Virus record (IMG/VR): IMGVR_UViG_3300042483_000349
Coordinates: 1 to 21,071 of that record
From: a virus
DNA length: 21,071 nucleotides
Strand: one strand, 5' to 3'
Both the position numbers and the translations under genes were made by a program. The notes under the pieces are model-generated. The model saw only the letters and a list, made by a program, of their open reading frames with translations, did not search any database and had not been told where the DNA came from. How positions within the stretch are numbered: position 1 is the first letter of the stretch; every line of letters begins with the position of its first letter. Positions 12,436-20,899 of the stretch are shown here, piece after piece.

Positions 12436-12597
12436 TTATTTCTTGAGTCCGCGGATGTACAGGACGCTGCCTGTGTACTTCACTTCATTCTGAAGCTTGT
12501 TCGTCGCGACAAGAGTCTCGGCGTGCTCGAGCGTGACGCCCGAGATGTAAACTTCGCTTCCACCGCCATCGGCGATCATTACTGTGTATGTGGTCAT
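12436..12597 (-). CDS. Small protein of unknown function (53 aa)
   Basis: It starts MTTYTVMIADGGGSEVYISGV at the ATG at 12597, just after the shared leader sequence. The pattern suggests a compact beta-alpha-beta fold ending in VLYIRGLKK. A promoter module lies 45-60 bp upstream and the DUF6011 gene follows after 18 bp. Not recognised. Confidence 0.8.
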   Translation of the reverse strand: MTTYTVMIADGGGSEVYISGVTLEHAETLVATNKLQNEVKYTGSVLYIRGLKK

Positions 12598-12641
12598 TTT
12601 GTCTTCTTTCGTCGTTACCAGTCGGTTTGGCTGATAGTAGT

Positions 12642-12657
12642 ACTTTATCATCCCTAG
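12642..12657 (-). promoter_or_regulatory. Promoter module copy (CTAGGGATGATAAAGT)
   Basis: One of 15 copies of the 16-bp element. The -10 TAAAGT is followed by a leader with a small CAG/CTG hairpin and AACGACGAAAG before the ATG at 12597. Confidence 0.75.
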
Positions 12658-12803
12658 AACTGTGCCCTGGGACCTTAGCCCGCAAGGCACCTCGCTTTGG
12701 AGTGTTGCCAGAGGCCCTAGAACTTGGTCTGTGCTCGTGCTACCTAAATACCTGATGTGGATACCGCAAGGGCACTCAGGGCTTCTGAGCGCCTCTGAGC
12801 CCC

Positions 12804-12825
12804 ACCCCAGCTTTGCTGCTGAGGT
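12804..12825 (-). terminator. Terminator-like hairpin after the WGR-like gene
   Basis: The arms ACCCCAGC and GCTGAGGT pair over eight positions with one wobble and a six-base loop, 23 bp after the stop at 12848. There is no T tract, so factor-independent termination is uncertain. Confidence 0.4.
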
Positions 12826-12847
12826 GAGGCCTTGGGTTGAGGTCTGG

Positions 12848-13099
12848 TCAGACCGAGTAGGCTACTGCGTACCCGCGGTCCATCTTGCTGTTGACCTTGG
12901 CGTACCCGGCTGCGAGTGCTTGCTGGCTGGTGCGGAACACCTGCGTGCTTGACTGGCGGTTGGTCTTCTCGGCCATTCCCCACGAGCAGTGGAGTGTGGT
13001 GTCTGTCACCGTGACCTCGTAGATCTTCTTTTTGCCGGATTGTCCTCGGCCCATTGGTCCGATATCTGATCCCTTGAGGAGTGCCCATTTCTTATTCAT
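12848..13099 (-). CDS. WGR-like domain protein (83 aa)
   Basis: Residues 25-83 read KIYEVTVTDTTLHCSWGMAEK, then VFRTSQQALAAGYAKVNSKMDRGY. This fits the WGR-type domain: a Y-E-V strand, W-G, then F...A...K...K...GY. WGR domains occur in PARPs and in stand-alone bacterial proteins, and in PARPs bind DNA ends and contact the catalytic domain. Here it forms almost the whole protein. The ATG at 13099 follows GAAGGGACAAATACA. It has its own promoter module. Confidence 0.78.
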   Translation of the reverse strand: MNKKWALLKGSDIGPMGRGQSGKKKIYEVTVTDTTLHCSWGMAEKTNRQSSTQVFRTSQQALAAGYAKVNSKMDRGYAVAYSV

Positions 13100-13143
13100 T
13101 GTATTTGTCCCTTCGTCGTTACCAGCGCCTTGCTGATGAGATC

Positions 13144-13159
13144 AATTTATCATCCCTAG
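13144..13159 (-). promoter_or_regulatory. Promoter module copy (CTAGGGATGATAAATT)
   Basis: 16-bp element upstream of the WGR-like gene. The leader contains CAGC...GCTG and AACGACGAAGGGAC before the ATG at 13099. Confidence 0.75.
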
Positions 13160-13162
13160 ATT

Positions 13163-13200
13163 CCCCCCGGGAGGGGGAGCCAGGCCCTCTCGAGCCTGGC
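13163..13200 (-). terminator. Two adjacent hairpins between cassettes
   Basis: CCCCC/GGGGG (13163-13177) and GCCAGGC/GCCTGGC (13179-13200, eight-base loop) lie just after the stop of the gene ending at 13215 and just before the next promoter. They are GC-rich and stable but lack a T tract. Confidence 0.5.
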
Positions 13201-13214
13201 CCCTGAGTCCTTAC

Positions 13215-13544
13215 TTAGAACTCGTAGCTGTAGTATTCGTGGCGGCTGCCGATGTGGAGCTTAGTCCCTGACCGCATTGGCTCACCTTGCGCCACGTACT
13301 TGCCATTCTGGCGGAGGGTGAAGACCATTGTCGCTCCGGCTGGGTCTGGTGTGGTCACCCAGATGTTGTTGTAGTTGGCGCCACGGTAGATGTTTGCGTG
13401 ATCTGCTGGCTTGACGGAATCCCGCTGAACGGTAACTGTCTTGCCGTTATCGCTGACCGCGATGATTGTCATTGCGTGCGAGTCAGCGCAGTAGCTGACC
13501 GTAGCTCCTTCGCCAATCACTGGCTTGTTGAGTAGTGTTTCCAT
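13215..13544 (-). CDS. Conserved phage protein of unknown function (109 aa)
   Basis: The pattern VGEGATxxxxxDxHAxTIIxVSxxGKTVxVQRD...FTLRQNGKYVxxG...LHIGSRHEYYSYEF-like is one I recognise from a family widespread in bacterial genomes and phages. Here it reads VIGEGATVSYCADSHAMTII and ends SRHEYYSYEF. It is predicted all-beta. The family has no known function. The ATG has AAGGGA upstream and a promoter module 50 bp further up. Confidence 0.88.
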   Translation of the reverse strand: METLLNKPVIGEGATVSYCADSHAMTIIAVSDNGKTVTVQRDSVKPADHANIYRGANYNNIWVTTPDPAGATMVFTLRQNGKYVAQGEPMRSGTKLHIGSRHEYYSYEF

Positions 13545-13594
13545 TATTTGTCCCTTCGTCGTTCAGTCAGGCGGAGTGCCTAGCTGATATGTAC

Positions 13595-13610
13595 ACTTTA
13601 TCATCCTCAG
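13595..13610 (-). promoter_or_regulatory. Promoter module copy (CTGAGGATGATAAAGT)
   Basis: 16-bp element for the gene starting at 13544. The leader carries ATCAGC and AACGACGAAGGGAC. Confidence 0.75.
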
Positions 13611-13626
13611 TTTTTGATCGCCGTAT

Positions 13627-13655
13627 GGCGGCGGCGAGTTGCAATCGCCGTCGCC
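13627..13655 (-). terminator. Terminator-like 11-bp hairpin
   Basis: GGCGGCGGCGA (13627-13637) pairs with TCGCCGTCGCC (13645-13655) with one wobble and a seven-base loop. It lies 16 bp after the stop at 13671 and just upstream of the next promoter. Confidence 0.55.
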
Positions 13656-13670
13656 CTTGCGGTTTGAGTG

Positions 13671-13823
13671 TTATGCGAGTTTGACGTAATTTTCGATGTC
13701 GAAAGTTTTTGGATTGATCGGGGCTGGATCGTTAGTGTACGCTATTTCGTACGCAGTATACGGATCGCCGCTGATTATGGTTTGTGGATTGTTAGGTGTG
13801 ATGGTAACTATGTAGGTTGTCAT
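13671..13823 (-). CDS. Small protein of unknown function (50 aa), probably leaderless
   Basis: It reads MTTYIVTITPNNPQTIISGD and ends IENYVKLA. The opening strand resembles that of the small protein encoded at 12436-12597 (MTTYTVMIADG), suggesting distant paralogy. TATAAT ends seven bases before the ATG and no ribosome binding site fits between them, so the mRNA is probably leaderless or nearly so. Function not recognised. Confidence 0.72.
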   Translation of the reverse strand: MTTYIVTITPNNPQTIISGDPYTAYEIAYTNDPAPINPKTFDIENYVKLA

Positions 13824-13830
13824 GTAGCCA

Positions 13831-13846
13831 ATTATACAATCCTTAG
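13831..13846 (-). promoter_or_regulatory. Promoter module copy, leaderless type (CTAAGGATTGTATAAT)
   Basis: 16-bp element with the -10 seven bases before the ATG at 13823. It has no shared leader and no ribosome binding site. Confidence 0.8.
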
Positions 13847-13865
13847 ATAATGACCGCGATAAGGC

Positions 13866-14036
13866 CTACGCGATGTAGACCTTACCGAAGCAGTCATTGT
13901 CCCCAGTCATCGATTCAATCGATGGTGTGCGCTTGAAGTTTGCGAGTGCGAACTCTAGGTGTCCGCGGCATGTACCGCAGTCGTCATGAGCTGTCACATA
14001 CTGGATGTCGTTGTAGTTGTCTTCTGTAATCTGCAT
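13866..14036 (-). CDS. Small Cys-containing protein of unknown function (56 aa)
   Basis: It reads MQITEDNYNDIQYVTAHDDC, then GTCRGHLEFALANFK and ends DCFGKVYIA. The DDCGTC pair with the upstream His and later Cys could bind a metal. GAAAGGACG precedes the ATG by eight bases. Another ATG five bases upstream opens a different, very short frame. A promoter module lies 30 bp upstream. Confidence 0.75.
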   Translation of the reverse strand: MQITEDNYNDIQYVTAHDDCGTCRGHLEFALANFKRTPSIESMTGDNDCFGKVYIA

Positions 14037-14066
14037 GTCATTCGTCCTTTCCTTGTTGGTAAGAAC

Positions 14067-14082
14067 ATTGTACCATCCTGAG
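14067..14082 (-). promoter_or_regulatory. Promoter module copy (CTCAGGATGGTACAAT)
   Basis: 16-bp element with -10 TACAAT, followed by the leader AACAAGGAAAGGACG before the ATG at 14036. Confidence 0.7.
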
Positions 14083-14116
14083 TTTTTTGACGTACAAGGT
14101 GAGAAGTCGTGAGGCC

Positions 14117-14137
14117 CGCAAGGTGGAGGTCCTTGCG
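14117..14137 (-). terminator. Terminator-like hairpin CGCAAGG/CCTTGCG
   Basis: A seven-bp perfect stem with a seven-base loop at the left end of the non-coding segment that follows the gene ending at 14274. A T-rich run (TGTACGTCAAAAAACT) lies about 30 bases downstream, too far for a classical terminator. Confidence 0.45.
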
Positions 14138-14139
14138 AG

Positions 14140-14273
14140 CCCCTGACTTTAGCTCAGCAGCCAGCCCAAGTACGACGAAGAACTCGAGCTGGGCGAGCAG
14201 ATATTAGCTGAGTGAGTAACTTTGACACCGCTCAGCGCGATGAGGTATTGCGGCGTTACTCGGCCACTATAAA
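14140..14273. other. Non-coding segment with nested inverted repeats
   Basis: CTCAGC pairs with GCTGAG around an inner CAGCCCA/TGGGC pair (about 14154-14212). Next to it, GAGTAAC (14214-14220) pairs with GTTACTC (14255-14261), with inner CCGC/GCGG. No open frame with a ribosome binding site and no tRNA features (no T-arm GTTCRA) were found. It may be a structured 3' UTR or a small RNA. Confidence 0.4.
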
Positions 14274-14483
14274 TTAGAACTCGAGAGGAGCGTCAGCTGC
14301 TGGAAGATTCCAGGCTTTGCGCCACATATTTGCAATGACGTGTGCGTGTGAGTCAGACGTTGTTGGCATCTCAAAGATGTGTGAGTCTGATGAGTCACCG
14401 GTTGGCGAAGCCACCCAGATTTGCACAGTGCTTCCGAGCGTGAGAACCGCAACTACGGCTCCCTTCATTGTAATAGTTTCCAT
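14274..14483 (-). CDS. Small protein of unknown function (69 aa)
   Basis: The start at 14483 gives METITMKGAVVAVLTLGS and puts AAAAGG at the right distance; an ATG six bases upstream in the same frame is too close to it. A hydrophobic strand (GAVVAVLTL) is followed by VQIWVASP and a polar tail. It is too short and mixed to call a membrane protein with confidence. It has its own promoter module and the CAGCAAATGCTG leader hairpin. Confidence 0.78.
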   Translation of the reverse strand: METITMKGAVVAVLTLGSTVQIWVASPTGDSSDSHIFEMPTTSDSHAHVIANMWRKAWNLPAADAPLEF

Positions 14484-14523
14484 GATCATCCTTTTGTCGT
14501 TACCAGCATTTGCTGATAGATAC

Positions 14524-14539
14524 ACTTTATCATCCCGAG
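14524..14539 (-). promoter_or_regulatory. Promoter module copy (CTCGGGATGATAAAGT)
   Basis: 16-bp element. The leader holds CAGCAAATGCTG and AACGACAAAAGGA before the ATG at 14483. Confidence 0.75.
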
Positions 14540-14564
14540 TTTTAGCCCCGAGCTAACCGCTACC

Positions 14565-14798
14565 TCAAGATCGTGGAAGCTCAAAGCCGCACTCACAACG
14601 CCACCACTCGCCAGCTTCTAAGTTTGGGACTGGCATTTCTTTGACGCAGCTCCGGCACGCAACCTTACGCAAGCGACGCTGCCCACGAGGTATGTAGCCT
14701 TCGTCGTGCTTCTCCATGTAATGGCTCATGTGCTCATAAGTCTTCGCAAACATCTCACCGCATGCGGCGCACTCATACTTGAGTCGATTGGCAGTCAT
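14565..14798 (-). CDS. Double zinc-finger protein (77 aa)
   Basis: Residues 9-31 form a C2H2-like finger (CAACGEMFAKTYEHMSHYMEKH). A second metal site follows: CRSC at about 48-51 and CEC near the C-terminus (WWRCECGFELP). The linker is basic (RGQRRLRK). A nucleic-acid-binding role is likely; the target is unknown. The ribosome binding site is weak. Confidence 0.85.
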   Translation of the reverse strand: MTANRLKYECAACGEMFAKTYEHMSHYMEKHDEGYIPRGQRRLRKVACRSCVKEMPVPNLEAGEWWRCECGFELPRS

Positions 14799-14833
14799 TT
14801 CACATCCATTCCGACTTCAGAATAGATGTGAAA
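14798..14833. promoter_or_regulatory. Inverted repeat TTTCACATC / GATGTGAAA at the zinc-finger gene start
   Basis: Perfect nine-bp arms at 14798-14806 and 14825-14833 with an 18-bp spacer overlap the start codon region of the zinc-finger gene. It could be an operator (arm centres 27 bp apart) or an RNA hairpin that hides the start. Confidence 0.45.
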
Positions 14834-14840
14834 CTCTGAG

Positions 14841-14918
14841 TCACAGGCATAGAAGCACCGCAACGCAGCAGGCCAAAGCAACGCAAAGTATTAGTGTTGC
14901 TTGATCGTGCGAGTCCAT
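14841..14918 (-). CDS. Putative 25-aa transmembrane peptide
   Basis: It reads MDSHDQATLILCVALACCVA and ends VLLCL. Apart from the first seven residues, it is one hydrophobic helix with four cysteines. It starts 5 bp after the stop of the 121-aa gene, without a clear ribosome binding site, so translation would depend on coupling. It may be a holin-like or regulatory peptide, or chance. Confidence 0.4.
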   Translation of the reverse strand: MDSHDQATLILCVALACCVAVLLCL

Positions 14919-14922
14919 TGCG

Positions 14923-15288
14923 TTACGCTTTCGCAGCGTAGCGATCTCTAGTCCACTGCGCGGCTTCGTCATCTTGAACCATGTTCATTGCGTGCCATAC
15001 TTCACCGCATGCATGGTAGTACGTGTCGCCAAGTGTCTTATGCACTTGATCTTTGAAGTTGCCGTAGTTCAGCATTTCTGATTGCAATGCAAGCCATTCT
15101 GAATACTGATCTCGAGTTACGAAAGTACGGTACTGATAGTCCCGCATAGGTGTGAACTCAATTTCGCAGCTTGCAATCTCTGAAAGAGCGATTAGCGATT
15201 GACGATCACGTGATCGTGCTGTAAGGAATCCCTTGCGTTGATGGTTGTCCACCACGCTTACGAATCCGTCTTGGGTAAATACCCACAT
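14923..15288 (-). CDS. Conserved actinophage protein of unknown function (121 aa)
   Basis: It starts MWVFTQDGFVSVVDNHQRKGFLTARSRD and continues DYQYRTFVTRDQYSEWLALQ. This MWVFT..GFVS start and the DYxYR motif mark a family I recognise from many actinobacteriophages, always unassigned. The C-terminus is helical with HACGEVWHAM. AAGGAGATAACAT precedes the ATG, a strong ribosome binding site. It follows the genes at 15338-15669 without a separate promoter module. Confidence 0.92.
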   Translation of the reverse strand: MWVFTQDGFVSVVDNHQRKGFLTARSRDRQSLIALSEIASCEIEFTPMRDYQYRTFVTRDQYSEWLALQSEMLNYGNFKDQVHKTLGDTYYHACGEVWHAMNMVQDDEAAQWTRDRYAAKA

Positions 15289-15337
15289 ATGTTATCTCCT
15301 TATTTGTCGTTTTGTCATTTAGTATTGAATGCGAAGA

Positions 15338-15496
15338 CTAGTTGTCCCAGTCTTCGTACTCGTCGTCACCAAGTAAGTCCCGCATAAAGCGTTCATTACA
15401 GTCGGCATCGATCTTTGCGACTTTGCGCAGTTCGCGCTTGTCGTCTTCAATTGTTGTTGGCCCACCCGCAATACGCAAGTGCTCTAGCCAGACCAT
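15338..15496 (-). CDS. Small acidic protein (52 aa), coupled to the upstream gene
   Basis: It reads MVWLEHLRIAGGPTTIEDDK and ends GDDEYEDWDN. The start overlaps the upstream stop by one base (TGATG), a sign of translational coupling. It is helical and acidic at the C-terminus. Not recognised. Confidence 0.75.
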   Translation of the reverse strand: MVWLEHLRIAGGPTTIEDDKRELRKVAKIDADCNERFMRDLLGDDEYEDWDN

Positions 15497-15669
15497 CAGA
15501 GTTCTATGCCTTCAGGAAGGTCCGCAATCATCATCGGCTCAACTACGGCAGGACCGTACTCTTCTGTCATCGAGCGAACATAGGCTTGCTTCTGTACGGG
15601 GGTGACGTAGGCGACGATGTCGTCTCCATCGCTATTGGTCACTGTTACTTTGAATACTTCTGGTTCCAT
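15496..15669 (-). CDS. Small protein of unknown function (57 aa)
   Basis: It reads MEPEVFKVTVTNSDGDDIVA and ends DLPEGIEL. The ATG follows GAGGAGTAAAC, an excellent ribosome binding site, and a promoter module lies 27 bp upstream. Predicted beta strands come first and a helix follows. Not recognised. Confidence 0.82.
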   Translation of the reverse strand: MEPEVFKVTVTNSDGDDIVAYVTPVQKQAYVRSMTEEYGPAVVEPMMIADLPEGIEL

Positions 15670-15695
15670 GTTTACTCCTCTGTTGTATAACTACT

Positions 15696-15711
15696 ACTAT
15701 ACATTCCCGAG
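15696..15711 (-). promoter_or_regulatory. Promoter module copy (CTCGGGAATGTATAGT)
   Basis: Variant of the 16-bp element (GGGAAT for GGGATN) ahead of the gene starting at 15669. It lies 2 bp beyond the stop codon of the membrane protein gene ending at 15714. Confidence 0.7.
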
Positions 15712-15713
15712 TG

Positions 15714-15884
15714 TTAGCGCACCTTAGAGGACAGGGTGCTTAGTATTGCTCCAAACAAGGCGAGACTAACGACTACCTCAATACTTCCACCCGCAATTGC
15801 GGTGACCACAGATGCTAAACCCATGATCACCGCAAGAACAGATGTCCATACTAAGTTCCGCAATTGCGAGAACCAAGTTGGCAT
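15714..15884 (-). CDS. Small membrane protein with two hydrophobic segments (56 aa)
   Basis: It reads MPTWFSQLRNLVWTSVLAVI and continues MGLASVVTAIAGGSIEVVVSLALFGAIL-like to SKVR. Two transmembrane segments are joined by a short Gly-rich turn. It starts two bases after the stop of the HTH gene. Size and topology fit a holin, but nothing in the sequence proves it and no endolysin is adjacent. Confidence 0.75.
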   Translation of the reverse strand: MPTWFSQLRNLVWTSVLAVIMGLASVVTAIAGGSIEVVVSLALFGAILSTLSSKVR

Positions 15885-15886
15885 AG

Positions 15887-16204
15887 TTACGCTGTTGCCT
15901 TACGGGTACGTCCTTTGAGACGACCAGATGCATCGCGAATTGGTGTACCGCTTGCTCCGATGAGCTTACGAGTCTGGCTGTACGAGAGTCCATGTGCTCG
16001 AGCTACTTCAATAACTGATTGCCCTTGAGCGTAGAGTTCGCCCGCACGCTGTGCTGTAAGTTCTGACATGTTTGTTTGTCTCCTTCGTAGTGTAGTTTTT
16101 GTTTGTATTTCTTCTGGCATCAGTGAAAGCTGCTTTCTTGCTTCTTCAATAAGCGCTTTTGCTTCATCGAGAACCGCATAGGCTGCTGCATCCATGTGTG
16201 TCAT
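15887..16204 (-). CDS. HTH DNA-binding protein (105 aa)
   Basis: Residues 46-85 read MSELTAQRAGELYAQGQSVIEVARAHGLSYSQTRKLIGASG, a clear helix-turn-helix of the resolvase/sigma-4-like type. A basic tail GRLKGRTRKATA follows. The N-terminal 45 residues are helical (AYAVLDEAKALIEEARKQL). Starts at 16204 and 16195 are both possible, and an internal ATG before MSELTAQ would give the HTH alone. A TAGTAT lies seven bases before 16204, so the transcript may be leaderless. It is probably a regulator, perhaps of the many promoter modules. Confidence 0.85.
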   Translation of the reverse strand: MTHMDAAAYAVLDEAKALIEEARKQLSLMPEEIQTKTTLRRRQTNMSELTAQRAGELYAQGQSVIEVARAHGLSYSQTRKLIGASGTPIRDASGRLKGRTRKATA

Positions 16205-16211
16205 TGGTCTT

Positions 16212-16217
16212 ATACTA
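16212..16217 (-). promoter_or_regulatory. Candidate leaderless -10 (TAGTAT) for the HTH gene
   Basis: TAGTAT, seven bases, then the ATG at 16204; no ribosome binding site lies between. No CTNNGGAT element is present. Confidence 0.35.
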
Positions 16218-16246
16218 CTTCGTAGATACTGAAAAGTACATAAGTA

Positions 16247-16381
16247 CTACAATTTTTTGTCAATATCTTTTTGAGGACTGACTACCCCAAGAAGAGCCGT
16301 ACCGTGCACCTTCTCTTTACGAGCGAGGCGAACTGACATTGCCGCAAACGTAAACAAGAAAGCAAGTACGAGAAAGATCAT
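16247..16381 (-). CDS. Small single-pass membrane protein (44 aa)
   Basis: It reads MIFLVLAFLFTFAAMSVRLA, then a basic KEKVHG and polar tail. It overlaps the upstream zinc-ribbon gene by ATGA. The N-terminal hydrophobic helix followed by positive residues suggests an anchored cytoplasmic tail. Function unknown. Confidence 0.72.
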   Translation of the reverse strand: MIFLVLAFLFTFAAMSVRLARKEKVHGTALLGVVSPQKDIDKKL

Positions 16382-16533
16382 TTAGTTTCTTCCATTTCTA
16401 CGGTCGTAGTTGAGTGCGCAGAAGGATTGCGGCAAGTAGGGTTCTCACTAAGGCCGACAAAAGTGATCATAGTGTTGTCGCATTTAGGGCACTTCCACTT
16501 TTGTGGCTTACGCTTCTCTGAGTTTTCTGACAT
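16378..16533 (-). CDS. Small zinc-ribbon protein (51 aa)
   Basis: It reads MSENSEKRKPQKWKCPKCDN, then a third Cys (NPTCRN) and His. CPKC plus Cys/His suggests one zinc site. GGAGGAAGCA precedes the ATG. It follows whiB by 72 bp. Confidence 0.78.
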   Translation of the reverse strand: MSENSEKRKPQKWKCPKCDNTMITFVGLSENPTCRNPSAHSTTTVEMEETK

Positions 16534-16605
16534 TGCTTCCTCCGTACATATTGTCCTAAGTCATACACGATACTACAAGTCAACGGAGCTATTGAGTATT
16601 TCATT

Positions 16606-16851
16606 CTACTTTTGCTGCCTACGGCGTACCCGCAACATACGTCGCCTTTCGTTTGCAGTCATTCCGCCCCAGACTCCAAACTCAGTATGGACGAGTGCGT
16701 ACTCTCTACAGTTGTCAATCACCGCACAGGTAGCGCATACGCTTTTTGCCTTTCGCACCGTAGTACTTTTGTGATCTTCAAAGAATAGTTCTTGGCGACC
16801 AATGCATGCAGCTTTGTCTCTCCAACTCATCAGGTCATTTTCGTCGTTCAT
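16606..16851 (-). CDS. whiB: WhiB-family Fe-S transcriptional regulator
   Basis: This 81-residue protein has the complete WhiB signature: four cysteines that hold a [4Fe-4S] cluster (C16, C39, C42, C48, spaced Cx22Cx2Cx5C), the GVWGG turn (59-63), and a basic C-terminal tail (RRRMLRVRRRQQK). WhiB proteins bind the housekeeping sigma factor and steer transcription; WhiB of mycobacteriophage TM4 inhibits a host WhiB. The start at 16851 is chosen because the upstream sequence belongs to the gene ending at 16875 and GAAAGAAG precedes the ATG. It lies 23 bp after the peptidase-like gene, so the two are probably co-transcribed. It ties the phage to an actinobacterial host. Confidence 0.96.
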   Translation of the reverse strand: MNDENDLMSWRDKAACIGRQELFFEDHKSTTVRKAKSVCATCAVIDNCREYALVHTEFGVWGGMTANERRRMLRVRRRQQK

Positions 16852-16874
16852 GTCTATTCTTCTTTCGTTTGCGT

Positions 16875-17462
16875 CTATTTTGGAGCAAGTTGGCTTACAA
16901 TATGGAAAGGTGGTCCTGACCCGGGATCTAGTTTTGCAGCAATTTGTAAAGATTGCCGCACCGCATCTTGAGCCGCAGACACTTTTGTCATGAGCTTTGG
17001 CAATCCGAACGAATGCAGACTGCCTAATGCGTAGTCGCCGCCAGTTCCCAGCGCGTACACACCCGCAGCATCTCGTACCCACGAGTAGTCGTCACCAATG
17101 ACGTAGACAGTTCCATTGACTACCGCAAGAACATCTGATCCGTACTGTGCTTGCTCGTCTTTACCTGACGCTGCGTAGCCTTGAGCTTCAAAGCACGTCC
17201 GCAATGAAGGAATGAATTTGCTAGTCATGTATTTGTCTAGCCGCACTCCAACTAAGTCACCGACTTGTGGTGGAAAGAATGCGTGCGTAAGGATGTTGAT
17301 TGCTCGCACATCACCCGCAGCACCGAGAAGAAACTCGCCATTCCTTGCGACCTTTGTTGAACCGCGTGCCATCGTGTAGCGACGACCATCTTCTTCTGTC
17401 ACTTGAGAGTCGTAGCCGACTACTGCCCACTTAGGTCCTTGTACGCACACTATGGTTGTCAT
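16875..17462 (-). CDS. HslV/proteasome-like N-terminal threonine (Ntn) hydrolase
   Basis: This 195-residue protein starts Met-Thr-Thr-Ile-Val; removal of Met would expose Thr as the nucleophile without a propeptide, as in HslV. Counting that Thr as residue 1, Asp17 (VVGYDSQ) is in place and a Lys in GSTKVAR aligns with catalytic Lys33 after a three-residue insertion. LLGAAGD matches the conserved Ala-Gly turn, and GTGGDYALGS (139-148 with Met) matches the GSGGxYA motif of HslV and proteasome beta subunits. The length fits a beta subunit. No HslU-like ATPase is visible in the window. It sits between an SH3-like protein gene and whiB. Substrate and assembly state are unknown. Confidence 0.87.
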   Translation of the reverse strand: MTTIVCVQGPKWAVVGYDSQVTEEDGRRYTMARGSTKVARNGEFLLGAAGDVRAINILTHAFFPPQVGDLVGVRLDKYMTSKFIPSLRTCFEAQGYAASGKDEQAQYGSDVLAVVNGTVYVIGDDYSWVRDAAGVYALGTGGDYALGSLHSFGLPKLMTKVSAAQDAVRQSLQIAAKLDPGSGPPFHIVSQLAPK

Positions 17463-17468
17463 TGAGTA

Positions 17469-17807
17469 CTACCTTACTATGTCAACGATGCTTGTCGGTA
17501 CACTGATACTCGACGACTCTACTTTCCCATCTGACGAATAGCGGACAAATCGTCCTACTGGATTGTCCAATTTGACCAGCAACTTTTTCTGCTTCAAGCC
17601 TACAACTACCCCTGTGGCTCCTTGTAAGTACTGTGTACCGCATAGGCTATTGAATACGACCTTGTCGCCTACGCCATAGTCTTTGATAGTTCTTGACTGC
17701 CGCGTGACTCGGAGTCGCTCTGTTAGAGCTTTCTCTATGTCCGCTAACGTACTGTCGTATACCCCGAGCGATATGTGGCGTATGACTGTTTCTTCTGCTG
17801 ATGTCAT
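17469..17807 (-). CDS. SH3/KOW-like domain protein (112 aa)
   Basis: It starts MTSAEETVIRHISLGVYDST at an ATG overlapping the previous stop (ATGA). A helical N-terminus is followed by a small beta barrel: YGVGDKVVFNS, GTQYLQGATGVVVGLKQKKLLVKLD, VGRFVRY. This resembles SH3- or KOW-like proteins common in actinophages. Binding of RNA or protein is likely for such a fold but not shown. It lies six bases before the Ntn hydrolase gene. Confidence 0.82.
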   Translation of the reverse strand: MTSAEETVIRHISLGVYDSTLADIEKALTERLRVTRQSRTIKDYGVGDKVVFNSLCGTQYLQGATGVVVGLKQKKLLVKLDNPVGRFVRYSSDGKVESSSISVPTSIVDIVR

Positions 17808-18013
17808 TCTGGTTTGTCCTCTGTTAGTTCTTTGACGGCGGCTGTGATCTTTCTGATGTCCGCATTGTTGCATGTCATCGGGTCAACCGTGAACTTCTTT
17901 ACCATTCTCGGTTTGATCCCTGCAGCTTCTGCTACTTTCTCGATGCCCAGTTTCTTGGCCGTATGACCAATCTCCTTGAGTCCTTCAAGAACCGTGTCTA
18001 CGTAATGTGCCAC
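17804..18013 (-). CDS. Small Cro/XRE-like HTH protein (69 aa)
   Basis: The GTG at 18013 is preceded by AGGAGG at seven bases, the strongest ribosome binding site in this region; longer starts run through the promoter. The sequence LGIEKVAEAAGIKPRMVKKFTVDP is a helix-turn-helix, and CNNADIRKITAAVKEL fits the closing helix. It is the first gene of the cluster with the Ntn hydrolase and whiB. A 7-bp dyad overlaps its promoter, so autoregulation is plausible. Confidence 0.85.
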   Translation of the reverse strand: MAHYVDTVLEGLKEIGHTAKKLGIEKVAEAAGIKPRMVKKFTVDPMTCNNADIRKITAAVKELTEDKPE

Positions 18014-18044
18014 AGCGTGTCCTCCTGTTGTTGTTGATAGTACT

Positions 18045-18066
18045 ATTATACAATCCTTAGATTGTA
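18045..18066 (-). promoter_or_regulatory. Promoter module copy with overlapping dyad operator
   Basis: The 16-bp element (CTAAGGATTGTATAAT, 18045-18060) overlaps a perfect inverted repeat TACAATC-CTTA-GATTGTA (18049-18066). Among the module copies only this one forms such a dyad. Confidence 0.78.
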
Positions 18067-18073
18067 AGTCCAA

Positions 18074-18107
18074 CCTCGAGTCTTATCACAGTAAGAACTT
18101 ATCGAGG
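18074..18107 (-). terminator. Hairpin CCTCGA/TCGAGG after the 171-aa gene
   Basis: Six-bp perfect arms with a 22-base loop that contains a partial second pairing, 14 bp after the stop at 18121. Weak evidence for termination. Confidence 0.3.
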
Positions 18108-18120
18108 TCGGGACATTAGA

Positions 18121-18636
18121 TCAGCAAATTGAGAAGCCACCGCTTTGCGCAAGAAACTCTGCGAACTCTTCAACGTTCTCTGCTGAGAATGGATACGAAG
18201 CTTCCCACGAAGCAACCTTGCCTTCGCCACCGCAACCATTGCAAGTGCCGTGCGTGCGGCCAAGTAAGACGGCAAGCGCTTCTTCCAGTTGCTTAGCAGG
18301 CATTCCAAATTCTTCGCCTACTTTGTCAGTGCGGATCCCAGTCGTACCGCAATACGCGCAGTCTGTTTGTGGCAACTCCGCGATGTGTTTGTTGTATTTG
18401 TCTTCGTATTCAAAGGTGTGCCCAGTTGCAAGGCACTCTTTTAGAATAGCGCTGAGTTCTTGTGCGCCATCTTCGTCTAATCCATCGCCACCATTAGTGT
18501 CGCCATCGACTTCACCGCATAGTGCCGGAGCTACTTCAAGACAGTAGTTCCACAGTGGTCTCCACCACCAAACATTATTGCGAAAGTACTCGCCTTTTTC
18601 TGACGTAGCATTTCTTCCGTACACATCCATTCCCAT
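18121..18636 (-). CDS. Conserved phage protein with DnaJ-like zinc motif (171 aa)
   Basis: It begins MGMDVYGRNATSEKGEYFRNNVWWWRPLW, a start I recognise from many phage and bacterial proteins of unknown function. Two CxxC pairs follow: DCAYCGTTG and TCNGCGGEGKV. Together they resemble the DnaJ-type zinc ribbon. The centre is acidic. The ATG is preceded by AAAGGACTAAGCT. It is transcribed from its own promoter module. No function is established. Confidence 0.92.
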   Translation of the reverse strand: MGMDVYGRNATSEKGEYFRNNVWWWRPLWNYCLEVAPALCGEVDGDTNGGDGLDEDGAQELSAILKECLATGHTFEYEDKYNKHIAELPQTDCAYCGTTGIRTDKVGEEFGMPAKQLEEALAVLLGRTHGTCNGCGGEGKVASWEASYPFSAENVEEFAEFLAQSGGFSIC

Positions 18637-18691
18637 AGCTTAGTCCTTTGTCGTTTGTCGTTGTTGTTGTCTTACCGTAAAGGTTGACAGG

Positions 18692-18710
18692 ATTATAATA
18701 ACATCCCTAG
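18692..18710 (-). promoter_or_regulatory. Promoter module copy, three bases longer (CTAGGGATGTTATTATAAT)
   Basis: The CTAGGGAT core is separated from TATAAT by three extra bases. It serves the gene starting at 18636 through a leader with repeated AACGACAAA. Confidence 0.65.
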
Positions 18711-18714
18711 AAAA

Positions 18715-18894
18715 TTAGCCAGCCTTGTAATTTGCATTAGTCGGGTGGCGATGCTTACTGCCAGCGAGTTCTGCTTTCTTTTGCAAAGAGCACTCTGCGA
18801 GAGTGCCATAGCCGCGCATAACTAATACGAAGGCCACTGCTGGAAGCGTCGCGAGCGCGAGCTTTGCAGCCGTGCTTATCTCTAATGCTTCCAT
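18715..18894 (-). CDS. Small single-pass membrane protein (59 aa)
   Basis: It starts MEALEISTAAKLALATLPAV, with a transmembrane segment through VAFVLVMRG and a polar, basic tail (KKAELAGSKHRHP). It starts one base after the stop of the 34-aa gene, so the two are probably coupled. Function unknown. Confidence 0.72.
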   Translation of the reverse strand: MEALEISTAAKLALATLPAVAFVLVMRGYGTLAECSLQKKAELAGSKHRHPTNANYKAG

Positions 18895-18895
18895 G

Positions 18896-19000
18896 CTATT
18901 TTGTCCGACGCTTGCTAATTGCCATTCCACCAAGCAAGAAGACTGTCAAAGCCCATGCCACTGATGCCACTGTGTTATCAAATGATACTACAAATTCCAT
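18896..19000 (-). CDS. Tiny membrane peptide (34 aa)
   Basis: It reads MEFVVSFDNTVASVAWALTV, then FLLGGMAISKRRTK. One transmembrane helix ends in four positive residues. GGAAGGAAACCAAA precedes the ATG, a good ribosome binding site, and a promoter module lies 30 bp upstream. It forms a pair with the gene at 18715. Confidence 0.7.
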   Translation of the reverse strand: MEFVVSFDNTVASVAWALTVFLLGGMAISKRRTK

Positions 19001-19029
19001 TTTGGTTTCCTTCCATGTTGTTATTAGCT

Positions 19030-19045
19030 ACTTTATCATCCCAAG
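19030..19045 (-). promoter_or_regulatory. Promoter module copy (CTTGGGATGATAAAGT)
   Basis: 16-bp element ahead of the two small membrane protein genes, just after the stop at 19049. Confidence 0.75.
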
Positions 19046-19048
19046 AAG

Positions 19049-19222
19049 CTAGAACCGAGCTTTTAGCCCATGTTCCTTTTTGATTGAAAGTAGGGTCTGA
19101 ACCTGGCTGCTTGTAAGGTACCCAAGTCGATTGAAGTGAATTGCCATCTTTTTGCAGAAAGGATACGTATTCTGGTATCCCTCCGCGAAGTCAATTGCTT
19201 TGTCTAGGTCCGCGTTGTTCAT
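19049..19222 (-). CDS. Small protein (57 aa), probably leaderless
   Basis: It reads MNNADLDKAIDFAEGYQNTY and continues to a helical C-terminus with YLTSSQVQTLLSIKKEHG. TATAAT ends exactly six bases before the ATG, with no ribosome binding site, so the mRNA should start at the ATG. Not recognised. Confidence 0.78.
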   Translation of the reverse strand: MNNADLDKAIDFAEGYQNTYPFCKKMAIHFNRLGYLTSSQVQTLLSIKKEHGLKARF

Positions 19223-19228
19223 AGTATC

Positions 19229-19244
19229 ATTATACAATCCTGAG
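19229..19244 (-). promoter_or_regulatory. Promoter module copy, leaderless type (CTCAGGATTGTATAAT)
   Basis: 16-bp element two bases after the thyX stop codon; the -10 is six bases from the ATG at 19222. Confidence 0.82.
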
Positions 19245-19245
19245 T

Positions 19246-19941
19246 TTACGGCGCGATACGAGCGTTTTGTTCCCACGCCGCAAACGTAACCGGCATCACA
19301 GGCGACGCAAGTTCGCACACCGCATTAGCGTACTCACGAATATCGCGTTGCGCGGACTCGTGCTGTCTCAGCGACAAAAAGTTCATGAGCGAGCGCGCAT
19401 TTACTGTCCAATAGAATTGTGTATACATTGAGACAGGTAGAACCGCTCGAGCAAGTTCTTTTGCTACGCCACGAACTATCATGTGCTGGTACGCTTCGTA
19501 CGCTTGCTCATTGTTTTTTTGAATGAGTTCTACAGTCTCACGAGACAATTCAGCATCTACAGGCTCAAAGCGATATGCGCCTGGCTTGCCGACTTGCGTC
19601 CTAACATCACTTTCAGCCGGCACGAAGAACTCATTTGGAACTTCTGAGTACCGCGCGCTAAACTCATTGAATGATCCAATACGGTGACGAAACCACTCAC
19701 GAGCAACAAAGACCGGGCACTTGACATGGAAGCGAAAAGCGTTGTGCTCAAACGGAGTTCCATGACGCTCCCGCATGAGAAAGTTGACAAGACCTTTGTC
19801 AACCTCTGACATTGCTATCCATTCGTTCTCTTGCTTTTGCTTTGCAAACGACACTCGGGCCGCATTGACGACAGACATGTCGTCTGCCATCGCTGCGTCC
19901 AAGCGAACGAATCCTCCGCCAACGTTGATTAGCTCTTTCAT
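19246..19941 (-). CDS. thyX: Flavin-dependent thymidylate synthase
   Basis: This 231-residue enzyme makes dTMP from dUMP using methylenetetrahydrofolate, FAD and NADPH. The family signature RHRx7S is present (RHRIGSFNEFS, 85-95), with the FAD/dUMP-binding region RERHGTPFEHNAFRFHVKCP before it and SLMNFLSLRQHESAQRDIREYA near the C-terminus. The length is normal. The ATG directly follows the stop of the 59-aa gene (TAAATG), and no ribosome binding site is evident, so translation is probably coupled. Phages carry thyX to supply thymidine nucleotides for their replication; many actinobacterial hosts use ThyX too. Confidence 0.97.
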   Translation of the reverse strand: MKELINVGGGFVRLDAAMADDMSVVNAARVSFAKQKQENEWIAMSEVDKGLVNFLMRERHGTPFEHNAFRFHVKCPVFVAREWFRHRIGSFNEFSARYSEVPNEFFVPAESDVRTQVGKPGAYRFEPVDAELSRETVELIQKNNEQAYEAYQHMIVRGVAKELARAVLPVSMYTQFYWTVNARSLMNFLSLRQHESAQRDIREYANAVCELASPVMPVTFAAWEQNARIAP

Positions 19942-20121
19942 TTAGTAGCGAATACCCGCTACGTCAAACGCTTTCAATGTTGCTTCAATTGACTCATGGT
20001 TTTCCCGCAGGTACTCACGGACTTCTTCTGACTCTGCTTTTAGCTCATTTGCTTTTGCGACGATTGCGTAAAGTCTACGCTCGGCCGCTCGTGTGTTTCT
20101 GATGTGTCTACTTTTTAGCAT
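19942..20121 (-). CDS. Small coiled-coil protein (59 aa) upstream of thyX
   Basis: It reads MLKSRHIRNTRAAERRLYAI and continues as a charged helix (AKANELKAESEEVREYLREN). The ATG follows AAAAGGAAACAC. It abuts thyX with no gap. Probably helical; function unknown. Confidence 0.78.
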   Translation of the reverse strand: MLKSRHIRNTRAAERRLYAIVAKANELKAESEEVREYLRENHESIEATLKAFDVAGIRY

Positions 20122-20153
20122 GTGTTTCCTTTTGTCGTTGTGTTGATAAGACC

Positions 20154-20169
20154 ATTATACAATCCTTAG
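20154..20169 (-). promoter_or_regulatory. Promoter module copy (CTAAGGATTGTATAAT) for the thyX pair
   Basis: 16-bp element. The leader carries TTATCAACACAACGACAAAAGGA before the ATG at 20121. Confidence 0.8.
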
Positions 20170-20175
20170 TTAGAG

Positions 20176-20415
20176 CTACGACCAGACTTCTTCTCTGATT
20201 GTCCAACCTTGCTTGGCAATCTTTTTGCGAAAGTGGTTCCAACCGCGTGACTCAATCTCTTCATCTTCTTCAATGTCTTCGTCTGTGCACCAATTGATTC
20301 GTCCTTCCGTGAGGGACTCTCCAGTCAGTACGTCAGTGACTTCGAACGCTATACCGCATGAGGTATGGACGATGAGGTCTACTTGTTTGATGTCTTTTGT
20401 CTTTGTTGTTTCCAT
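20176..20415 (-). CDS. Acidic small protein (79 aa), probably leaderless
   Basis: It starts METTKTKDIKQVDLIVHTSC and has an acidic middle (CTDEDIEEDEEIESRGW) and a C-terminus GWTIREEVWS. TATAAT ends six bases before the ATG and there is no ribosome binding site. Not recognised. Confidence 0.8.
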   Translation of the reverse strand: METTKTKDIKQVDLIVHTSCGIAFEVTDVLTGESLTEGRINWCTDEDIEEDEEIESRGWNHFRKKIAKQGWTIREEVWS

Positions 20416-20421
20416 AAGATT

Positions 20422-20437
20422 ATTATACAATCCCTAG
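20422..20437 (-). promoter_or_regulatory. Promoter module copy, leaderless type (CTAGGGATTGTATAAT)
   Basis: The TAG inside CTAGGG is also the stop codon of the upstream gene (20434-20436). The -10 is six bases from the ATG at 20415. Confidence 0.82.
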
Positions 20438-20604
20438 AGACCGTACCGCCGTAGCACTTCGCTGGCTACAGCTGGGTGGCAATCCACAACGATGCTGCGG
20501 ACCACGTCTCCTGTGAGGTCTTCAAGGCTAAGGTGTGGGTAGTCGGACTGGGCGTCCATGATCCCAACTTCGATCTCTTCCATGATGTCATTTACTGTTC
20601 TCAT
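20434..20604 (-). CDS. Small protein of unknown function (56 aa)
   Basis: It reads MRTVNDIMEEIEVGIMDAQS and continues YPHLSLEDLTGDVVRSIVVD. It is helical. AAAAGGACAACA precedes the ATG, and the shared leader and promoter module lie directly upstream. Not recognised. Confidence 0.8.
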   Translation of the reverse strand: MRTVNDIMEEIEVGIMDAQSDYPHLSLEDLTGDVVRSIVVDCHPAVASEVLRRYGL

Positions 20605-20634
20605 TGTTGTCCTTTTGTTTTGGCTGATAAGACA

Positions 20635-20650
20635 ATTATACAATCCGCAG
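20635..20650 (-). promoter_or_regulatory. Promoter module copy (CTGCGGATTGTATAAT)
   Basis: 16-bp element directly abutting the stop codon at 20651; the leader holds TTATCAGCC and AAAAGGAC. Confidence 0.8.
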
Positions 20651-20860
20651 CTATCCAAACATCTCTGCCCAGCACTCGGGGTGAGTGCCAGTCATTAGCT
20701 GCTCCCGGAGTTCTTTGCTGAGGTCTGGGAAAGCCTCTTGGATTAGCGCGCCTGAGCTGCGTTTGAATAAGCCCGCGTTGGGCACTTCAACTTCGCCTTT
20801 ATACCCGCAATGCGAGCACCGCCGAGTTTCTATTTTTGAGTAAAATGTGGTTGTCATCAT
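20651..20860 (-). CDS. Small zinc-ribbon protein (69 aa)
   Basis: CSHCGYKGEVEVPNAGLFKR near the N-terminus and HPECW near the C-terminus give a plausible zinc site. The stretch GALIQEAFPDLSKELREQL is typical of a small conserved actinophage family. Starts at 20860 and 20857 are both possible; GAAGGGACA lies upstream. Function unknown. Confidence 0.85.
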   Translation of the reverse strand: MMTTTFYSKIETRRCSHCGYKGEVEVPNAGLFKRSSGALIQEAFPDLSKELREQLMTGTHPECWAEMFG

Positions 20861-20883
20861 TGTCCCTTCGTTGCTATGTAGTT

Positions 20884-20899
20884 ATTATACAATCCGTAG
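20884..20899 (-). promoter_or_regulatory. Promoter module copy (CTACGGATTGTATAAT)
   Basis: Rightmost copy of the 16-bp element; the leader holds CAACGAAGGGACA. No -35 hexamer is visible about 17 bases upstream of the TATAAT. Confidence 0.8.

Follow-up and report, generated by a model that had tools for sequence, protein, structure and literature searches.

The virus record IMGVR_UViG_3300042483_000349, whose whole stretch of 21,071 nucleotides (nt) is here called the window, contains fifteen copies of a short element in which a conserved box directly adjoins a -10 hexamer in front of small genes. Judged from sequence, these copies belong to a real and large promoter-like regulon of unusual architecture that is common to a group of uncultured, probably actinobacterial phages. 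We propose, with a probability of roughly 0.58, that the element defines a class of host-polymerase promoters without a -35, in which the box would be read by a phage DNA-binding protein so that the cassettes behind it are activated together. The promoter architecture and the predicted transcription start appear well supported, and a phage protein is the most likely reader of the box. We infer that this protein would activate rather than repress, and that it may be either a helix-turn-helix (HTH) protein of 69 amino acids (aa) or a winged-helix protein of 194 aa.

When the window is searched for CTNNGGATNNTAWART with at most one mismatch, fifteen sites are found between 12642 and 20899, every one on the minus strand (11 exact, four with one mismatch). 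Only 0.11 sites are expected, and none of 100 shuffled sequences reached fifteen, so that the set described in an earlier note on this DNA was reproduced exactly. That note had placed the copies within about 60 base pairs (bp) of a gene start, and at all fifteen the start codon (ATG or GTG) of an open reading frame (ORF) of at least 30 aa indeed lies 7-59 nt past the -10. The window is contained at 100% identity, in reversed orientation, in a 116,822-base contig (G002:35742-56812), and at the same identity in G001 and G003, two shorter contigs that come from this phage as well. The motif search over the whole genome that the note had called for returned 58 sites on G002, all in gene direction and all within G002:17523-44171. 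This 27-kb stretch is a module crowded with small genes (by simple gene calls), and the other ~90 kb, which hold the terminase and genes such as DNA polymerase, have no site by the same pattern. The conserved unit across the 58 sites reads AAW-CTAR-GGAT-NG-TATAAT-RRTCTYAT; within its -10 the T, A and final T are found at 58 of 58 sites and the fourth-place A at 57, letters of the kind that the search pattern favours. An exact search of viral contigs for the G002 form, CTARGGATTGTATAATNNTC, found five contigs, namely G001, G002, G003, G030 and one of 6.6 kb.

The earlier note had seen no -35 in the one copy it examined, and this holds for the whole set. Among columns -45 to -4 relative to the box none exceeds 0.22 bits (58 G002 sites), and when TTGACA is sought 15-19 nt from the -10, the best match scores 2.63 out of 6 on average, compared with 2.92 at control positions. 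The -35 match fell below the control in five of the seven box phages tested, with G011 and G007 above it by 0.03 and 0.07. As a positive control, the related but box-less phage G018 gives a -35 match of 5.1 versus 3.05 at control positions. Its 21 canonical promoters of TTGAC type (TTTGAC...GTGG-TATAAT-AGAA; L210-L213, G018:13964-31216) precede small genes whose leaders have the same style, and offer a natural control for the box promoters.

The distance from box to -10 is nearly fixed within each phage. The G002 core, CT[AC][AG]GGA, occurs 83 times on both strands, and all 47 copies with a TAWWRT hexamer within 14 nt have it at 3 nt, with two extra TAWWRT hits at 5 and 6 nt. The corresponding core lies near TAWWRT in 53 of 73 copies in G010 (52 at 4 nt; 16 at 6 nt), 26 of 65 in G011 (25 at 6 nt; 17 at 8 nt) and 20 of 92 in G007 (17 at 6 nt; 5 at 8 nt), and in G026 this is true of 21 of 22 copies of AACTAAAG, all 21 at 4 nt. 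We read the second peaks 2 nt further on as those expected from overlapping hexamers, e.g. TATAAT/TAATGA.

Where transcription begins can be predicted from the genes themselves. In 17 phage sets with 605 sites in all, the ATGs of ORFs at least 30 codons long peak at 7 nt (107 sites) and 8 nt (20 sites) past the -10; 53 sites have no qualifying ATG within the range used. A Shine-Dalgarno-like word is present at 17 of the 127 sites with an ATG at 7-8 nt versus 410 of the 478 others (Fisher p 4e-54). Because the 127 sites mostly have no such word they look leaderless, and the start is therefore predicted to be the A 7 nt past the -10. The starts 6-8 nt past the -10 that the earlier note expected are thereby backed as far as sequence can back them. 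About one-fifth of cassettes look leaderless, three of them in the window (Table 1), and most remaining transcripts would have a ribosome site of AAAGGA type in a short leader. The shared leader with a CAGC/GCTG hairpin, also claimed by the note, proved overstated and stands for part of the sites: the leader word AACGAC is found at 7 of 15 window sites, and by eye a CAGC/GCTG-like hairpin can be made out in four of the 15 leaders. Folding of eight of them gave three clear CAGC/GCTG-type stems (z -1.4 to -2.4) and a weak stem at 12595-12635.

Relatives of the window phage were searched de novo for words at a fixed distance from the -10. Each phage with a box has its own version, e.g. CTAAAGA, CTCRGGA or TTCCAGAG, at near-fixed spacing to the -10; the versions are uniform within each phage and different between phages. 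They are aatCTarGGAttg in G002 (59 sites by this method), aaaCTcrGGAa.G in G004/G009 (70), aaaCtagaGAAaG in G005 (65) and the overlapping G006 (15), wTCTAAAGAagt in G010 (63) and likewise in G028 (57), ttCTGAG.aagt in G011 (47), TTCCAGAGtTt in G007 (29), aaaatCTAAAGtTGt in G025 (33), AAACTAAAGTTgt in G026 (22) and aAaCTAAAGaaag in G027 (9). Whole-contig runs gave tttCTAaAGymGA in G029 (27), aaCt.rGGA.tG in G030 (76), AAAACTAAAaTTGT in G031 (22), GAAACTAAAGTTgt in G032 (26), gtTTCTAAAAGtGT in G033 (35) and tTCTAAAGAAgt in G037 (42), a locus run gave TTCCaGAGatg in G034 (14), and the first 50 kb of the named phage DSL-LC01 hold 33 sites of GatTCTAAAGaTGT. Most versions have the common core C-T-n-R-R-G-A, or something near it, against the -10. 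Seed strengths (log10P) range from -21 to -122, or about -10 for G034 and G006, and Markov shuffles (ten for each of four genomes) gave 0 to -4.9. The de novo search found no box in G008, G012-G015, G017-G021 and G024, and G016 has four box-like sites at a cut contig end.

Other repeated words were seen near -10-like hexamers in these and further contigs. The repeat ACt.TGTnACACCCct precedes a TAnnnT hexamer by ~12 nt in L279, L280, L300 and L302-L307, and more weakly in L290; the phages concerned have the family of the 53-aa protein G002:34511-34672 in common, and the repeat could be another promoter or operator dialect. Six copies of CTATAG lie ~19-20 nt upstream of -10-like hexamers in L008, L009 and L010 (the G004/G009 phage and a close contig). 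Word pairs with a 13-nt gap were found for GGTCC (G013, 46) and CCTGT (G013, 34; G012, 23).

We hypothesize that the element is used by host RNA polymerase with a primary-type sigma factor. The -10 (TATAAT, -12 to -7) would be kept, and the role of the -35 would pass to the box at about -25 to -13, which abuts it. A phage-encoded protein would bind the box at fixed spacing and recruit or position the host polymerase, and the cassettes of the small-gene module would switch on together. Fixed orientation and spacing, a strict -10, a missing -35 and boxes that are uniform within a phage and differ between phages fit a positive phage factor, as MotA is in T4, and a single factor for all cassettes, which the earlier note had suggested, is the best reading. 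At the level of sequence, the support covers the box, its spacing, the missing -35, the predicted start, the restriction to the module on G002 and the one version per phage.

Could the host polymerase manage without a phage factor? The host sigma factor or polymerase might itself prefer the box in the spacer instead of a -35, and the -10 does have sigma-type preferences, of the sort that the search pattern favours. Sigma domains encoded by the phages are also scarce: region 2 was found in none of 26 records, region 4 in one of eight (box-less G008), and its r4_2 domain, among 14 records, above cut-off only in G037 and below it in G007. However, the box changes strongly between related phages, and a conserved host sigma would not readily account for this, even if the hosts need not be the same. 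An ordinary -35 is present in the relative G018, and the logos have no conserved extended -10 (TGn) in common. On balance we consider this explanation unlikely. Quite unlikely, in our judgement, is a box that serves as the operator of a Cro/CI-like phage repressor, perhaps the 69-aa HTH protein, that would cover the -10 and silence the cassettes until removed. XRE-like folds are often repressors, and the 69-aa model resembles XRE/Cro-type proteins at weak E-values. DSL-LC01, which is listed as predicted temperate (PMC10611076), has a dyad flanking the -10 (TTCTA-N12-TAGAA), as nearly does G033 (TTCTA-N12-TAGAC), with column shuffles as good in 3 and 5 of 100, respectively. Yet in 14 of the other 15 sets at least 18 of 100 shuffles equal the dyad score, and we dropped the operator dyad as a general feature, since it is found in two of 17 sets; in G002 a different, short dyad overlaps the edge of the -10 and stands out (1 of 100 shuffles as good). 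Moreover, a repressor would not need the same orientation (58 of 58 G002 sites) or a near-invariant spacing to the -10, and one would expect a strong promoter under repression to retain its -35. A tyrosine integrase was found in none of 11 records, and a small resolvase in four of the 11, G002 not among them.

It seems very improbable that the repeats are post-transcriptional elements of the leader or translation start, or copies left by gene duplication, rather than promoters. Cluster K mycobacteriophages are known to have a 13-bp repeat that is linked to starts and has no known function (PMC3203893), some leaders fold, and some cassettes are duplicated, as the three WGR members are. In addition, the preceding gene often has its stop codon within the box: at 135 of 605 sites an ORF of at least 40 codons ends at the box T-R-R. 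Conservation of the box nevertheless exceeds this use. A stop triplet stands in the box at 42 of 59 G002 sites and an ORF of at least 40 codons ends there at 14, and because most triplet-bearing sites end no such ORF, stop-codon use does not explain the box. The box lies upstream of TATAAT and the predicted start, and would therefore be outside the RNA of its own cassette, and the flanks (-45 to -4) are not shared.

If a phage protein does read the box, two products of the module are the leading candidates. The 69-aa protein encoded in the window contains an HTH in its AlphaFold model (mean predicted local distance difference test score, pLDDT, 85), and its Foldseek matches are XRE/Cro-like (P22 c2, SinR, HipB, C-proteins), though weak, with E-values from 0.3 upwards. 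A PDB sequence search with the family gave weak hits only (best E 0.005), and a bacterial genome collection held no relative at the sensitivity of the search made. The gene is present in 15 of 53 records and in DSL-LC01, and all 16 carriers have the box (G037 and G038 have the same protein). L244, first retrieved through the HTH family, was then found to have 19 box promoters of its own version. In an alignment of 15 HTH records, G007 and G034 have the sole N in place of K/R at one recognition-helix position and also the sole boxes with CC in place of CT; the two look like sister lineages, so that this co-change would count as one event at most.

The 194-aa protein is encoded outside the window (G002:18046-18630). 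Its model is a winged helix with pLDDT ~85-97 over residues 21-110, then a linker (pLDDT <50) and a C-terminal helix; the nearest folds are PadR/MarR (E 0.0075 and above), and a PDB sequence search with the family gave weak hits to coiled-coil chains (0.0006). Iterated profiles found it in all ten box phages besides G002 that were judged to span the module, in two of six partial contigs, and in none of 11 box-less genomes at E 1e-3. G018, G020 and G021 are without the box and without this protein, yet keep other module genes, namely homologues of G002:17254 and 20695, with a homologue of 18727 found by profile only in G018.

Several observations weigh against the proposed explanation. In G030, which carries 76 box sites and almost all of the module, no 69-aa HTH could be detected, and the rule that a box means this gene failed in that contig. 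Seven further box records without the gene (G016, G031, G035, G036, G039, G040 and G041), each of them short or with its module at the edge of a contig, were counted neither way. The winged helix gives a weak hit (E 0.011) in box-less G008, and G058 and G059 have distant homologues in longer frames (E 1e-23 to 1e-24) with -35-type promoters and no box. In a wider search it is present in 16 of 54 records, 14 of them box-bearing, and the rule that a homologue means a box failed for those two. Distances between box versions track neither the 69-aa HTH (Mantel r 0.32, p 0.005; 15 groups) nor the winged helix (r 0.18, p 0.13) better than other genes, ten other families giving 0.15-0.45. Presence and absence are confounded because both candidate genes lie in the module. 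Finally, core words without a nearby TAWWRT are frequent in some phages as raw counts (36 of 83 in G002, 20 of 73 in G010, 39 of 65 in G011, 72 of 92 in G007, one of 22 in G026).

The three regulators that the earlier note had put forward fared differently. Its 69-aa HTH protein remains a good candidate, with every examined carrier box-bearing and G030 standing against it. WhiB was rejected because phages with and without the box alike encode it, with hits in 10 of 11 box-less genomes and in 23 of 26 records altogether. The 105-aa HTH protein is not supported by its distribution (Table 1). A 53-aa protein (G002:34511-34672) fits 10 of 10 box phages and 0 of 11 box-less genomes, but has relatives in phages without the box and was set aside. 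A phage sigma factor as the general reader was likewise rejected, since none was found in most box phages. Genes with an ECF-like (extracytoplasmic function) sigma region do occur in G008 (L173:13497-14084) and G037 (G037:26439-26597). In G008 the gene immediately precedes the homologue of G002:39006-39344, a place taken in G002 by the 69-aa HTH; the idea that it replaces the HTH was dropped because box-bearing G037 has both the HTH and a sigma-like gene. A search for a T7-type RNA polymerase gene found none in 14 records, and no control genome gave a hit either.

The window encodes ThyX, WhiB and a terminase large subunit, and because of this content an actinobacterium is the likely host of its phage; for the box phages as a group, the hosts are probably freshwater actinobacteria. 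WhiB is an actinobacterial protein. It is described as such also in the paper on the nearest named genome, DSL-LC01 (PMC10611076). Megablast of the window against a phage collection and an Rfam scan of the window gave no match. A tandem direct repeat of ~360 bp (82% identical) occupies window positions 650-1369, in the part of the contig spanned by a 5159-aa ORF (G002:52513-67992), and TGCGG occurs 69 times on the minus strand of the window and 22 times on the plus strand, the minus-strand expectation from sub-words being 43. Pfam WGR matches were found in three of 68 scanned module proteins; we take the three copies to be window 12848-13099 (G002:43714-43965), G002:19150-19404 and G002:33114-33365, since these have common hits in relatives. 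An AAA (MoxR-like) ATPase gene lies beside one for a VWA/CoxE-type protein (G002:21229-22221 and 22332-24128; which is which was deduced from sizes and the DSL-LC01 annotation), and both the box phages and the box-less G018, G020 and G021 retain the pair.

Table 1. Box promoters and candidate regulator genes in the window (window coordinates).
Feature	Position	Strand	Context
Box + -10 (CTACGGATTG TATAAT)	20884..20899	-	before 69-aa ORF 20651-20860
Box + -10	20635..20650	-	before 56-aa ORF starting 20604
Box + -10, leaderless-type	20422..20437	-	79-aa ORF, ATG at 20415, 7 nt past -10
Stop codon (TAG) of preceding ORF, carried by this box	20422..20437	-	ORF end at 20434
Box + -10	20154..20169	-	before 59-aa ORF 19942-20121
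Box + -10, leaderless-type	19229..19244	-	57-aa ORF, ATG at 19222
Box + -10 (TAAAGT type)	19030..19045	-	before 34-aa ORF starting 19000
Box + -10 (TATTAT)	18695..18710	-	before 171-aa ORF 18121-18636
Box + -10	18045..18060	-	before 69-aa HTH gene 17804-18013
69-aa HTH protein gene (XRE/Cro-like fold)	17804..18013	-	candidate box reader, itself behind a box promoter
WhiB gene	16606..16851	-	not specific to box phages
105-aa HTH gene	15887..16204	-	also in box-less G008; not found in box-bearing G032
Box + -10 (CTCGGGAATG TATAGT)	15696..15711	-	before 57-aa ORF 15496-15669
Box + -10 (TAAAGT), leader hairpin	14524..14539	-	before 69-aa ORF starting 14483
Box + -10 (TACAAT)	14067..14082	-	before 56-aa ORF 13866-14036
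Box + -10, leaderless-type	13831..13846	-	50-aa ORF, ATG at 13823, 8 nt past -10
Box + -10 (TAAAGT), leader hairpin	13595..13610	-	before 109-aa ORF 13215-13544
Box + -10 (TAAATT), leader hairpin	13144..13159	-	before 83-aa ORF 12848-13099
Box + -10 (TAAAGT), weak leader stem	12642..12657	-	before 53-aa ORF starting 12597

It is possible, though we would put it somewhat short of even odds, that this lineage of actinobacterial phages practises an undescribed takeover of host transcription, in which the -35 has been abandoned throughout a regulon with dozens of promoters and a box touching the -10 is read by a small phage protein of drifting specificity, one dialect per phage. The mostly open literature, judged by titles and abstract openings, held no recognisable description of this promoter type. 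If the proposal is true, these phages, probably of freshwater actinobacteria, would offer a natural series of promoter dialects in which the -10 is constant and the recognition box varies, together with a phage factor able to replace the -35 contact from within the spacer. Exchange of box and reader between phages would then be a direct test system. The leaderless starts would also allow transcription starts of uncultured phages to be read from sequence alone.

Among named phages the closest comparison is Actinomycetia phage DSL-LC01 (OQ999401.1), the nearest genome by terminase (84%), which has the same local gene order and is placed in the proposed 'Nanparkviridae' (PMC10611076); the word 'promoter' has no occurrence in the main text of that paper. 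Of its 129 kb the first 50 kb contain 33 box promoters (GATTCTAAAGATGT TATAAT) like those described here, and at 31 of the 33 the next annotated coding sequence starts after 27-56 intervening bases, but the box is a different version and has a dyad. G018 resembles the box phages in its leader style (AACGAAAGGA), its small-gene cassettes and TATAAT in 21 copies, and differs from them in its TTGAC-type -35, the lack of a box, and the 69-aa HTH and 194-aa winged-helix genes, which were not found. In other words, G018 has canonical promoters, and box promoters lack the -35 element that marks a canonical sigma-A promoter.

The earlier note had also likened the element to the start-associated sequences (SAS) of cluster K mycobacteriophages, a 13-mer, GGGATAGGAGCCC, that directly precedes start codons and has been suggested to act in translation initiation (PMC3203893). 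According to that paper, SAS and their extended form (ESAS) are many, mostly co-oriented short repeats before actinophage genes, with an ESAS half-site consensus that varies by phage, and in these respects the box element is similar. The likeness does not extend to the sequence, as the 13-mer has no match in the window at up to two mismatches; what stands is a conserved block against the -10, and the box element is, unlike SAS, tied to a -10 and a transcription start.

The middle promoters of phage T4, with their MotA box and the appropriation of sigma by AsiA and MotA (PMC6755090), are a known system that the proposed one would resemble in design. Neither MotA nor AsiA is among the 21 Pfam families matched by 68 of the 73 called module genes, nor among the 25 of 49 families listed for the 50 of 88 genes scanned elsewhere. 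In both systems a strict -10 is kept and no -35 consensus is found; on our proposal, both also use host polymerase and put a box, bound by a DNA-binding protein of the phage, in the place of the -35. In T4 this box has its centre near -30, whereas the box described here lies at about -25 to -13 and abuts the -10; here, moreover, the host is probably an actinobacterium and about one-fifth of the transcripts look leaderless.

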